NCBI GenBank assembly: GCA_947650005.1
Contig: CANSTU010000001.1
Coordinates: forward strand, 62,001 to 126,000
Direction: 5' to 3'
Source of the DNA: an uncultured Lachnospiraceae bacterium
Lineage (GTDB): Bacteria; Bacillota; Clostridia; Lachnospirales; Lachnospiraceae
DNA length: 64,000 bases
In this document: positions 6,183 through 43,000 of the stretch, one piece after another
How the letters are laid out: every line of letters begins with the position of its first letter
How positions within the stretch are numbered: position 1 is the first letter of the stretch
The notes under the pieces: model-generated
What the model was told of the DNA's origin: nothing
The model's input: the letters and a program-made list of their open reading frames with translations, nothing else
Database searches by the model: none
Translations under genes and position numbers: made by a program

Positions 6183-7933
6183 ACGCTCCCCCTTAGAACT
6201 TCTTTCTTTTCTCTCCGGGTCACCTTGCCGTCCGCCACCTCGTAGATCACATCCACATTCCGGATCGTCGTCAGCCTGTGGGCAATGATGATCATGGTTT
6301 TCAGGCCCTTGAGGCTATCAATCGCCTTCATTACCGCACTCTCCGTTTCATTATCCAGGGCAGAGGTTGCCTCATCCAAAATCAAGATCTCCGGGTCATG
6401 GTACAACGCCCTGGCAATCCCGATCCTCTGCCTCTGTCCTCCGGACAGGCGAACCCCCCTGTCTCCCACCATCGTATCCAAACCGTCCGGGAGATTGTCC
6501 ACAAAATCAAATAGCTGCGCTTTCCGGATCGCCTCCCGTACTGCCTCTTCATCAATTTCCTCCTCCAGGATGCCGAACGCTATGTTATTTTTGATCGTAT
6601 CGTCGGACAGATAGATGGTCTGCGGGATATAACCGATCTCCTTCTGCCAAAGGGAAATATTTTTACGCACATCCAATCCGTCGGCCGTAATTTTACCATA
6701 CTGCGGCATCAAAAGTCCCAAGATAATATCCACCATCGTCGTTTTACCAGCGCCGGACGGGCCTACGAAGGCTACGGAACTTCCCTTTTGGATATCAAAG
6801 CTCACGTCTGTCAGTACATTTTCTTCTGCATCTGGATAATGATAGCTTACTTTTCTCACCTGAAGTTCCTTTTCAAACTTCCACTCTCCCTCAGCCTCCT
6901 TTCGCTCTGCCATCACCTCTTCCACCTCTTTCAGATCGTGATAGATCAGATTGATGGATGGATTCGCATACTGAATATTGGCCATATGTTCGTTAATCCT
7001 GCCAACGGACGGCATCAGCCGAAAGGCCGCCACTGCAAAGACCGCAAGCTGCGGGATGAACTCCACAATATCCTTTTGCCCCGCATACAGTTTTATGATT
7101 ACGGCCAACAGCATTCCTGTCATGCTGACCGTCTCAATGGCATATTTAGGAAGGATACGTATCAAGCTGCTGATCCGCAGCCCTCTGGCATATTTTTTAA
7201 AATATATGTCGTAAGAATCCACAAAGAAGCTTTCCCGATTCAAAACCTTGATTTCTTTGATCCCTCCCAGTCCCTGATTCATCCATTTATAAATATTTCC
7301 CTTATACACCTGACTTTTCTTTCCCAGATCCCTGGAAAAATTTTTGGATATCCGGAAAAATACAAGCAGACAGGTCACAAGGAGCAGCACTACAACAGTA
7401 GTAATGGATTGGCTGACGATGAACAGATAGATTCCAATTGCTATACAGACACAGATTTCCGCTAGCATTTCCATAATATGGATCATGGCTTTCGCAAACA
7501 TATCCGTATCTTCCTGCATACTTCTCTGCAGCTCCGCCACATTCTTATTCAAATGAAAAGTATAGGGCTCATGCATATAAGCCGACAGGAGGCGCGAAGA
7601 TAATCTTCTTTGTACATCATAGGAGAACTTGTATATGGCATTTTTTTCAAGTGCGAGATATACATTTTTAAAAAGATAGATAAAGATAATGACTCCCGCA
7701 AGGGCCGCCAGGAAGGCAGTTACCGACTGAAAATTCAGAATATCATAAAAAAAACGGAGCCATCTGTTTTCCCGGATGGTATCCTGCTCCATAATGATAT
7801 TTATAAAGGGCATAAATATGGTAACTCCCAATAGTTCCAGGAAACTTCCAAAAATAATTGCAGCCAGCAGGACGAATAGCTTTCCTTTATCCTTCTTGCT
7901 GAAAATATATTCAAGCTTTCCCACCATGTCCAA
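6179..7933 (-). CDS. ABC transporter, fused TMD-NBD (MsbA/PglK-like exporter)
   Basis: Walker A 'GPSGAGKTT', signature 'LSGGQRQRIGIARAL', Walker B 'ILILDEATSALD', N-terminal TM region. Confidence 0.92.
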   Translation of the reverse strand: MDMVGKLEYIFSKKDKGKLFVLLAAIIFGSFLELLGVTIFMPFINIIMEQDTIRENRWLRFFYDILNFQSVTAFLAALAGVIIFIYLFKNVYLALEKNAIYKFSYDVQRRLSSRLLSAYMHEPYTFHLNKNVAELQRSMQEDTDMFAKAMIHIMEMLAEICVCIAIGIYLFIVSQSITTVVVLLLVTCLLVFFRISKNFSRDLGKKSQVYKGNIYKWMNQGLGGIKEIKVLNRESFFVDSYDIYFKKYARGLRISSLIRILPKYAIETVSMTGMLLAVIIKLYAGQKDIVEFIPQLAVFAVAAFRLMPSVGRINEHMANIQYANPSINLIYHDLKEVEEVMAERKEAEGEWKFEKELQVRKVSYHYPDAEENVLTDVSFDIQKGSSVAFVGPSGAGKTTMVDIILGLLMPQYGKITADGLDVRKNISLWQKEIGYIPQTIYLSDDTIKNNIAFGILEEEIDEEAVREAIRKAQLFDFVDNLPDGLDTMVGDRGVRLSGGQRQRIGIARALYHDPEILILDEATSALDNETESAVMKAIDSLKGLKTMIIIAHRLTTIRNVDVIYEVADGKVTRREKKEVLRGSV

Positions 7934-10165: not shown

Positions 10166-10300
10166 GGTTATCCCCCTGCATTTCGCAAGCGAAGCTTGTG
10201 ATACTGCCAACAATAAAGAGTTTGAAACAAAGTTTAAAACTTATCCCCCTGCATACCGCAAATTGTGCCTACGATGCTTCAAATAAACGAGTCTTGAACT
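10166..10300 (-). promoter_or_regulatory. Tandem pair of B-type RBS-hairpin leader elements
   Basis: Two copies ending '...GTATGCAGGGGGATAA' and '...CAAGCTTCGCTTGCGAAATGCAGGGGGATAACC-ATG', each preceded by a 'GTT(T)CAA(A/G)ACT' segment. Confidence 0.55.
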
Positions 10301-29576: not shown

Positions 29577-31073
29577 ATGAAAAAAAGGAATGCAGGTGCC
29601 AAAATATCCATATTTTTAACCATTCTGTTTCTGGCAGGCCTGATCCCAGTTCTGCTCCTCGGCAGATATAATTACCCCTGCGCGGATGATTTCGGTTTCA
29701 GCGCCTACAGCCATATTGCATGGATGGAAACCCGATCCGTATACCAGGTTCTAAAAGGGGCCTGGCAAACGGTGGTGGAACGTTGGATCGGATGGCAAGG
29801 CACTTTCTCCAGCATTTTCGTCATGGCGCTGCAGCCTGCGATATGGGGCGAGGGCGCATACTGCTTGGTTCCATGGATTATGATTGGAGCCATGTCATCG
29901 TCCACGCTTTTCCTGCTTTTTGTACTTTTTATCCGTATTCTCCGCGCTCCGAAATCCGTTTTCGTCAGCGTTTCCATGATCTATCTGATCTTTGCCCTGC
30001 AATGCATGATCGACAAGACCCAGGGATTTTTCTGGTTTAACGGAGCCGCCCATTATATGATTCCCCATAGCATAGCTCTTTTTCTCATGGGCGTGCTGCT
30101 TCTCCTGGTAACGCAAGAGCGTAAGAGACCATTTCATCTGGCTCTCTCCTGTCTTCTGGCCATTTTCACGGGAGGGAGCAACTATATCACCGCGCTTCTC
30201 GCCGCAGTCCTCTTTGCCGGCTCCCTCATCCTGCTCCTGTTATGCCGTAAAAAAAAGGAAAGCGCTCTTCTTGCCCTTCCCTTTTTCTTCTTTTTGACCG
30301 CCTTTGCCCTGAATGTGCTGGCTCCTGGAAATGCTGTCAGGCAGGAAACCATGGAATACCGCCCCGGCATTGTAAAATCGATACTCCTCTCCTTCTACTA
30401 CTGTGTGGAATATGTCTCCGAGACCTGGTTTGACTGGACTTACCTGCTCTTCGTCCTGGCCCTCCTTCCCTTTCTCTGGGAAGCGGTAAAGGCGGTTGGC
30501 CCGCGTTTTTCTTATCCCTGTCCCCTGCTCGTTTTTGGCGGCTCCTATTGCCTTCTGTCCGCCATGTTTACTCCTAGCCTTTTTGCTACGGGAATCGCAG
30601 GCGGCGGAAGGATATTCAATATAATTTTTCTGGACTTCCTGCTGTTAGTCATTGCCAATCTCTTTTATATGATGGGATGGCTGTATCGACACGGCCATCT
30701 GTCCGATAAGCTCCCTGGAAGCTGCCTGGAGCGGAGGAACACGCAAATTTACTTAGGCTGCGTCCTTCTGCTTGCAGGCTTCATCGGCGTTCTGTATACT
30801 GCGGTAAATCCCGACTATTTCACCTCAGCCTCAGCCTACCATTCCCTTCTCACCGGGGAAGCTGCCGCCTATGGAAAAGAAGGGGAGGATCGGACACAAG
30901 CCCTCCGCATGGCAGACGGGGATAGCATAAGCCTGGAACGCTTTGCCACGCATCCTTATCTCCTGTTTTTCAGCGATATTGAGGAAAGCCCAGATGACTG
31001 GAAGAATAAGTCCATGGCCAGATACTACCAAAAGCAGCGTATTTCAGGCATTACGCCGGGCGCCATGGAATAG
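29577..31073 (+). CDS. DUF6056-like multi-pass membrane protein
   Basis: 'CADDFGFSAYSHIAWMETRSVYQVLKGAWQTVVERWIGWQGTFSSIFVMALQP'; paralog of 32647..34146. Confidence 0.65.
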   Translation: MKKRNAGAKISIFLTILFLAGLIPVLLLGRYNYPCADDFGFSAYSHIAWMETRSVYQVLKGAWQTVVERWIGWQGTFSSIFVMALQPAIWGEGAYCLVPWIMIGAMSSSTLFLLFVLFIRILRAPKSVFVSVSMIYLIFALQCMIDKTQGFFWFNGAAHYMIPHSIALFLMGVLLLLVTQERKRPFHLALSCLLAIFTGGSNYITALLAAVLFAGSLILLLLCRKKKESALLALPFFFFLTAFALNVLAPGNAVRQETMEYRPGIVKSILLSFYYCVEYVSETWFDWTYLLFVLALLPFLWEAVKAVGPRFSYPCPLLVFGGSYCLLSAMFTPSLFATGIAGGGRIFNIIFLDFLLLVIANLFYMMGWLYRHGHLSDKLPGSCLERRNTQIYLGCVLLLAGFIGVLYTAVNPDYFTSASAYHSLLTGEAAAYGKEGEDRTQALRMADGDSISLERFATHPYLLFFSDIEESPDDWKNKSMARYYQKQRISGITPGAME

Positions 31074-31135
31074 GGCCCTATTCCTTTTTCGCGCCTTTCC
31101 CAGCCTTTCTATCCGAATTTTCCCTAATGTAAGAT

Positions 31136-31412
31136 CACTGAAATTGCATCCGCTCATGCCCGGCAGGATTTCGCCCGAAGAGGAACGGCCAGGAGGGTGC
31201 ATGGCGGCCGCACCATGTTTTTGCGTGCATATTGCGCCATGCAGATGAGACCTGCTTCCCAGGAGAGCCTTTGCTCGACTGGGAAGCGTCCAGGGCTCAT
31301 TGGAATGTCCGGCGCAACGGCACGCCAAAACATGGTACGGTCGCCATGCACCCTCCTGGCCGTTCCTCTTCGGGCGAAATCCTGCCGGGCATGAGCGGAT
31401 GCGGTTTCAATG
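31136..31412. repeat. ~277 bp near-perfect foldback palindrome
   Basis: Left arm TGCATCCGCTCATGCCCGGCAGGATTTCGCCCGAAGAGGAACGGCCAGGAGGGTGCATGGCG... (31147 on) is the reverse complement of the right arm ending ...ATGAGCGGATGCGG (to ~31404). The inner part also pairs (TTGCGCC/GGCGCAA, GCTTCCCAG/CTGGGAAGC). Confidence 0.9.
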
Positions 31413-31439
31413 CTCTTGCATTGATTTCATCTCCTATGG

Positions 31440-32519
31440 TTATTGCAGGAACAGAAATCTTTTTATTTTTTCCCACCCCACACGCCTTCCTCTCGTTGCG
31501 ATCGTTTCACCCACCTTACTGATTTTCCTTGTCAATCTGTCTTCCACGCTCCCCAGCAGGAATTTTCTCACGGCCTCAATCACGATGCATATGCCAAATG
31601 TCAGAAGCACATCCGCTGTAATCCACACGGGCATCCAGTTCGACATTATCATATCATGATCAAACTTCATCACATATCCGTGTACCAGCTCCATCACAAA
31701 GGTATTCATGATGAAAACGGCGAATACCTTTTCTGCCACACAGTTTATGAATTTTGACCGGAAGCGGAACCCTTTAAACAGGTAAAGGAGCAAGACGGAA
31801 ATCAGAATATTGGTAATGCTGTTATCCTTGGTCAGCCTGAGCGTAATCCCAGCTATATGAATCGTGAAAACATGGGATAAGTAATTGACGCCCGCAAGAA
31901 TCAGCAGGAGCAGTATCCCATTTTTCCTCTTCAGCTCGTAATCCCCATACATCCGAATCCACCTGCCAGCCAGATACAGCATGGTCATATTGACCAGGCC
32001 TTTTCCCAAATCCATGGTAATTTCAAAATACAGGAAGGTTGGAAAAATGCTGAATAAAACCAGCATTACCCCAACGAGCCATGTAAAGAGGTCCTTTCCC
32101 ACCTTTTCCACCGCCCTGTTCCAAAAAGGGCTCATCAGCATCAGGCAGACATAGCAGCTGTAAAACCAGTACTTTCTGGATGCCGCGGGAATACAGGACT
32201 TTACCAGCAGTTCAAAAACGCTGTCGGTCATCGACTCCGGGAAGAATGCTGCCCCCAGCATCGTCATGCACAGAGAATAAAAAATAACCATCAGTTCCAT
32301 ACGGATCAGCTTCTTCCACTGAAAACTAATTCCATAATATCCAGAAATCAAAATGAAGCAGCTAACTCCCGTATTACAGACAGCGTTAGCCAACCTCGTC
32401 GTATTTTTGCCCAACTCTGTATACCCCATCCCGGATATCAAGCCAAAGGCATGTATGTAGAGAACCATAAGAATGGCTATGATTCGCAGCGCCTCCATAT
32501 TGGAATCCCGATTTTTCAT
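31440..32519 (-). CDS. Acyltransferase family 3 membrane protein
   Basis: 'NMEALRIIAILMVLYIHAFGL', 'TGVSCFILISGYYGI'. Start moved to the ATG after GGGAGCAGTA. Confidence 0.8.
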   Translation of the reverse strand: MKNRDSNMEALRIIAILMVLYIHAFGLISGMGYTELGKNTTRLANAVCNTGVSCFILISGYYGISFQWKKLIRMELMVIFYSLCMTMLGAAFFPESMTDSVFELLVKSCIPAASRKYWFYSCYVCLMLMSPFWNRAVEKVGKDLFTWLVGVMLVLFSIFPTFLYFEITMDLGKGLVNMTMLYLAGRWIRMYGDYELKRKNGILLLLILAGVNYLSHVFTIHIAGITLRLTKDNSITNILISVLLLYLFKGFRFRSKFINCVAEKVFAVFIMNTFVMELVHGYVMKFDHDMIMSNWMPVWITADVLLTFGICIVIEAVRKFLLGSVEDRLTRKISKVGETIATRGRRVGWEKIKRFLFLQ

Positions 32520-32570
32520 TACTGCTCCCATCTGCGCGCCTTGGTACGCATACAAATCAGGGAAGTTGAA
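32520..32570 (-). promoter_or_regulatory. A-type RBS-hairpin leader
   Basis: Minus strand CCTGATTTGTATGCGTACCAAGGCGCGCAGATGGGAGCAGTA-ATG. Confidence 0.5.
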
Positions 32571-36923: not shown

Positions 36924-36995
36924 GATTATACCCCTGCATATAGCAAGCTGCGCTTGCAATACTGTTGCCAAGAAAGAATTTGAAACGGAATCTCA
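36924..36995 (-). promoter_or_regulatory. B-type RBS-hairpin leader
   Basis: Minus strand GTTTCAAATTCTTTCTTGGCAACAGTATTGCAAGCGCAGCTTGCTATATGCAGGGGTATAATC-ATG. Confidence 0.5.
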
Positions 36996-37015
36996 AATTC
37001 ATGCCCCTGCATCAT

Positions 37016-39308: not shown

Positions 39309-39360
39309 GCTTGGCTCCCATCCACGCGCCAGGGCGCATATCCAAATCAGGAAAAAGAAA
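39309..39360 (-). promoter_or_regulatory. A-type RBS-hairpin leader
   Basis: Minus strand CCTGATTTGGATATGCGCCCTGGCGCGTGGATGGGAGCCAAGC-ATG. Confidence 0.5.
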
Positions 39361-42879: not shown

Positions 42880-43000
42880 AGTCGGCTCCCATCTGCGCGC
42901 TTTGGCGCGCGTACAAATCAAGGGGTATACTCCTGCCTATCGCAAGCAGTGCTTGCAATACTGCTGCCAATAAAGCGTTTGAAACAAAGTTTCAGACTTT
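42880..43000 (-). promoter_or_regulatory. Tandem B+A RBS-hairpin leader elements
   Basis: Minus strand GTTTCAAACGCTTTATTGGCAGCAGTATTGCAAGCACTGCTTGCGATAGGCAGGAGTATA followed by CCCCTTGATTTGTACGCGCGCCAAAGCGCGCAGATGGGAGCCGACT-ATG. Confidence 0.6.

Follow-up and report, generated by a model that had tools for sequence, protein, structure and literature searches.

The window, i.e. the whole stretch of 64,000 nt analysed here, holds a single long inverted repeat. It is located at 31126-31422 (297 bp) between two convergent genes: a DUF6056 gene (PF19528) on the + strand, which ends at 31073, and an acyltransferase gene (Acyl_transf_3, PF01757) on the - strand, which ends at 31440. Both genes had been recognised correctly from the sequence alone. 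The features of the locus are as follows, + being the core-sense strand throughout:

31067-31084, +: terminator-like hairpin plus T5 of the DUF6056 gene, outside the element (hairpin search)
31126-31422, no strand: whole palindromic (foldback) element (inverted-repeat search, arm map; 40+ further matches elsewhere in this genome)
31126-31228, +: left arm; 95 of its 103 positions pair with the right arm (arm map)
31229-31319, +: conserved structured core, 91 nt (alignment A1; matches to the covariance models R1 and R2)
31241-31243, +: 5' half of the GNA/GNA internal loop, GCA in the window copy (A4 columns 14-19: G 97%, N variable, A 100%)
31244-31249, +: 5' strand of helix P2 (GATGAG), pairing with 31296-31301 (all eight P2 pairs changed on both sides in A4)
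31296-31301, +: 3' strand of helix P2 (CTCATT; same A4 covariation)
31302-31304, +: 3' half of the GNA/GNA internal loop, GGA in the window copy (A4 columns 95-97: G 100%, N variable, A 100%)
31320-31422, +: right arm (arm map)

The palindrome first reported at 31136-31412 is real and forms the inner part of this slightly longer one. Its arms of 103 nt each are 92% complementary and enclose a centre of 91 nt; the eight mismatches are of the transition type only (G.T or A.C). A perfect arm reaches 61 nt, compared with 11-12 nt in five shuffles of the window, and the RNA folding energy of the palindrome is -257 kcal/mol (z = -24). The inner ~90 nt had been read as a continuation of the pairing. 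This part does form additional structure, namely a conserved hairpin interrupted by internal loops, and is no simple extension of the stem. ORFs on both strands of the palindrome have HPPGRSSSGEILPGMSGC in common and gave zero Pfam matches; the mirrored peptides are indeed an artefact of the symmetry.

A search of the host genome and its relatives had been proposed as a check. The own genome (G000, Eisenbergiella) contains about 70 dispersed copies of the hairpin, and target-site duplications were found at copies in relatives. BLAST with a 291-bp region as the query gave 46 matches in G000, and the covariance model R1, built from 25 copies, located about 69 distinct places among the matches listed, whereby the opposite-strand echo that palindromes yield was excluded from the count. 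In most of the G000 copies the centre is exactly 91 nt long and is flanked by arms of 66-155 nt, many of them 100% complementary. The arms diverge strongly between copies and pair almost perfectly within a copy: mean pairwise identity between copies was 63% for the arms (taken as the first ~30 nt on each side) versus 87% for the core.

The core consists of several helices, which are split by a GNA/GNA 3x3 loop, an A.G mismatch and a short 3' bulge, and many copies have tandem G.A-like pairs near its tip. Statements on conservation are based on the alignments A1 and A4, as the sequences of A2 and A3 were chosen by an exact pattern and are conserved partly by construction. In A4 (93 distinct sequences, aligned to the covariance model, which favours the structure of that model), 93.4% of the cells are paired and 26 of 27 pairs are changed on both sides, a level reached by none of 500 shuffles. 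Among 100 model matches from many genomes, the G and the A of the GNA/GNA loop are present at 97-100% while the middle positions vary; the pairs of the adjacent helix P2 all vary with two-sided changes. Copies in G211, for instance, carry AACGAA/TTCGTT in place of GATGAG/CTCATC (L321). At four loci (L239, L241, L243 and L244) an 18-nt hairpin of the AATTACTTTAGTAATT type substitutes part of helix P1 beside the core. The E. tayi core in L032 (about 1544-1565) has 22 N in its centre, i.e. an assembly gap or a masked stretch at the hairpin tip.

In 34 G000 copies, the 3154 arm pairs contain 25 G.T, 38 A.C and 14 other mismatches. A count in the core helices gave 38 G.T and 34 A.C. Selection on an RNA stem should tolerate G.U and remove A.C. 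The similar numbers of G.T and A.C therefore point to young DNA mutations, after which one arm was corrected from the other; the tRNA control for this comparison comprised 10 tRNAs, too few for calibration.

The core occurs patchily within the Lachnospiraceae. The model R2 matched in 21 of 397 genomes of this family (17 of 334 genera); the copy number per genome ranged from one to at least ten. A class-wide sample of 392 gave three matches, all from the same family and none from outside it. Among the congeners, G012 (AP025576.1, complete), G001 (Eisenbergiella tayi DSM 26961) and G003 (E. porci) carry the element with other arms, G002 has two copies according to R1 and eight further congeners have zero copies by the same model. 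No match was obtained with the exact core pattern in 2.9 million viral contigs, nor by BLAST in phage and plasmid records. In Rfam 15, no family matched the core at its gathering threshold, and evalue mode yielded no credible match either. The family was not described in the literature searched on long inverted repeats, MITEs and palindromes in Lachnospiraceae or Eisenbergiella; subscription papers and preprints were mostly outside this search, so novelty is unproven. In the mouse-gut MAG CAJTGF01 the hairpins are found as inverted pairs inside larger non-coding composite repeats, which have asymmetric ends and no visible duplication. Divergent core pairs were verified by the model in G267, G226, G388 and G427. 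The apparent general divergence (-,+) of neighbouring cores was dropped as a rule, as it had been partly inflated by false regex matches in G000; the model-verified pairs (L265, L272, L282, L283 and L285) and the composites of the CAJTGF type were retained.

Evidence for mobility was obtained mainly from relatives. In G012 many young copies have the common ends CTCAAACTTCGCAG...CTGCGAAGTTTGAG, with CTCAAACTTCGCAG as the shared terminal inverted repeat; on both sides of these copies lie direct repeats of 7 bp that follow the pattern TNNNNNA (TAAGATA at L116, TAACATA at L110, TAAAGTA at L111, TAAATGA at L121, TCATTCA at L125, and others). With the terminal A/T counted as part of the element, these duplications are 5 bp long; 5 bp had been the first reading and was given up when the alignment of the ends gave 7 bp. 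A flanking direct repeat of at least 6 nt is present at 23 of 39 G012 copies, compared with ~2.5% for permuted pairs of left and right flanks. Copies in G211 and G427, which belong to two other genera, share the terminal inverted repeat TAGGYAATTGCGAAAC and are flanked by repeats of 10-13 bp (~11 bp). The ends of the G000 copies are diverse and eroded, and non-palindromic flanking repeats of at least 6 nt were found at 8 of 51 copies versus ~2.4%, a modest excess. At the window copy no clear target duplication is recognisable. The mobility of this copy is therefore inferred from its family. Presence and absence were observed at one locus, where the E. tayi hairpin L131 is missing from the corresponding place in CE91-St56 (L219). 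An orthologous copy in two related MAGs (L137 versus L204) shows matched arm changes. G012 and G211 also contain coreless or half elements with the same ends, which are heterogeneous, as in-place deletions would give; thus, they are silent on whether the core is needed in transposition. One intergenic region (L202 versus L224, about 7150-7500) contains different hairpins in CE91-St56 and in E. porci, which suggests a repeatedly hit site.

Candidates for a mobilising or partner gene were searched in the genomes carrying the element. None of the PF01609 (IS4-type) transposase loci in G012, G211 and G427 has the ends of the element, and G000 has no PF01609 match. In G211 no pair of ends encloses a transposase; a 3-kb end pair considered as a transposon was discarded, since it held a coaBC-like gene and two separate hairpins. 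An all-vs-all comparison of the flanking ORFs for a common neighbour gene recovered only ordinary families (ABC transporter, two-component, sugar-transport), and no gene lies between the paired cores at L144. The Y1 transposase (PF01797) is absent from seven of nine positive genomes, namely G000 and six of the eight others tested; two of the seven are single-contig. The reverse transcriptase PF00078 is absent from G000, G132 and G118 and present in six other positive genomes, although drafts may miss genes. Neither was found in all positive genomes.

Of the known systems, the element resembles MITEs, including the foldback types, in being short, non-coding and intergenic, with inverted-repeat ends, high copy number and target-site duplications (G012, G211, G427). 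In contrast to MITEs, almost all of the element consists of its inverted repeats, whose sequence changes rapidly from copy to copy; a structured core is kept in different genera and in elements whose ends differ, and no parent insertion sequence was found. REP/BIME sequences with RAYT (Y1) are likewise dispersed palindromic DNA with internal mismatches, but the present element is far longer (arms of 66-155 nt, whereas the REP/RAYT criterion is a palindrome of 20-40 bp), has duplications of 7 or ~11 bp and occurs in genomes lacking a Y1 transposase. The CAJTGF01 arrangement, in which inverted hairpin pairs lie within non-coding composites that have asymmetric ends and lack a visible duplication, presumably resembles PATE-like elements of the IS200/IS605 type. 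Such elements are not known to have inverted-repeat ends or duplications, unlike the solo hairpins of G012, G211 and G427. Retron msd and other RT-linked hairpin RNAs also are long hairpins from structured DNA or RNA; in contrast, no PF00078 was found in the genomes G000, G132 and G118, and the copies are not located beside one common gene.

The palindrome is best explained as a non-autonomous, MITE-like foldback mobile DNA element with about 70 copies in this Eisenbergiella genome, a reading to which we assign a probability of roughly 75%. The foldback MITE, one of the candidates named in the sequence-only reading, is thus the best-supported of them, given the copy number, the duplications in relatives and the locus that differs between species. 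It is not a plain MITE, however: the covarying core extends across genera and is not needed by a plain MITE, ends and duplication lengths differ, and the PF01609 loci of G012, G211 and G427 revealed no autonomous element sharing these ends. The unrecognisable target duplication of the window copy and the modest excess in G000 also count against this reading, and the one-sided orientation of the G427 and G211 copies just upstream of a start codon is not obvious for a purely selfish element. According to the proposed mechanism, a transposase acting in trans on the ends would insert the element. Template switching of the polymerase probably copies one arm from the other, so that arms would drift between copies and not within one; template switching in replication can make and repair perfect stems (PMC8794818). 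The core would be kept by selection, most likely for its role as a recognition site in the form of folded DNA (or RNA), because a correction of the type proposed for the arms would erase unpaired loops, which nevertheless persist. A trans factor recognising the core would help the element to spread.

Three other explanations were weighed against the mobile element. A foldback or chimeric assembly artefact, suggested by the draft state of the own genome (138 contigs, several of which end inside a copy), has a negligible probability: the arms are different in every copy and the flanks are conserved at an orthologous site. For the family as a whole an artefact is ruled out, as complete single-contig genomes carry it (G012, G226, G267 and G416). 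The position of the palindrome between two convergent stops and the extreme stability which its RNA hairpin would have could indicate that it serves the two genes as a bidirectional terminator of very large size or as an RNase III substrate, a weak one among the candidates listed earlier. This is highly improbable, because a terminator belonging to the DUF6056 gene itself lies at 31067-31084, which the earlier reading had left unmentioned when it stated, correctly, that no T-tract directly follows the palindrome at its ends. The GC-rich hairpin followed by a T-tract, by which an intrinsic bidirectional terminator is recognised, is not seen at the palindrome. Furthermore, the ~70 occurrences of the same element lie in other contexts and in all gene arrangements, and terminators have no need of a conserved 91-nt tip.

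Alternatively, the core might be a non-coding RNA with a defined structure, a candidate also named earlier. It could be a regulatory leader, a small RNA or a ribonucleoprotein RNA, which the repeats carry or which was domesticated from them, and the hairpin would act after transcription. Helices that covary, together with loops that stay invariant (GNA/GNA and A.G), are a typical mark of RNA motifs. However, G.T mismatches are no commoner than A.C, either in the arms or in the core helices, and this speaks against RNA-level selection on the pairing. Most copies in G427 (9:1) and G211 (7:2) are sense-oriented directly upstream of a Shine-Dalgarno sequence and start codon; no orientation bias exists in G000 (5:6) and G012 (10:8), the longest-ORF gene caller being too crude for firm statistics on gene orientation. 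By the same crude gene calls, copies lie between convergent as well as other gene pairs, which, like the missing Rfam match, speaks against an RNA. Overall we regard this explanation as improbable for the family, but an RNA role in some lineages is possible, given the orientation bias in G427 and G211 and its absence from G000 and G012. The copies directly upstream of a Shine-Dalgarno sequence (L251, L285-L293, L255 and L273-L281), mostly in one orientation, could affect downstream translation.

Extending the reading as a mobile element, the core could be the recognition structure of an undescribed mobilisation system of the Lachnospiraceae, a suggestion we make tentatively and consider unlikely. 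A trans factor would bind the folded tip with its GNA/GNA and A.G loops, as ssDNA or a cruciform, and reading of the fold instead of the ends would be the common denominator. Such a common step would account for the presence of one core in elements whose ends and duplication lengths differ.

The data suggest a family of transposon-like elements, undescribed so far, in which the arms stay matched and the shape of the tip is kept across many related genera. A large repeat family, apparently new to description, is thereby added to common gut bacteria. The family offers a natural experiment in palindrome evolution, in which the arms of dozens of copies change in concert and the unpaired tip resists. 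Comparing arms and tip separates DNA-level stem repair from selection on structure; the two are usually confounded where covariation is taken as proof of a functional RNA. Caution is advised, since covariation alone can arise in mobile palindromes.

Several other repeats and RNAs were also observed. In the window, two further repeat families are dispersed: D7 occurs at 32524-32562, 39314-39352 and 42885-42923, and D4 at 10166-10242, 36924-37000 and 42923-42999; the two adjoin at 42885-42999. In a Hungatella MAG, a GA-cis RNA (RF02987; L203:408-502, - strand) lies 0.25 kb from a core hairpin, outside the repeated element. A TwoAYGGAY RNA (L259:2597-2757) and a large SRP RNA (L154:4885-5093) are located near core hairpins and show no sign of belonging to the element. 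CE91-St56 additionally contains coreless hairpin-forming repeats of other palindromic families (L228:4218-4317, L228:2155-2185 and L111:2689-2822), with ends such as GTTACTGTCCACAGCC and CAGTTCAGAC.
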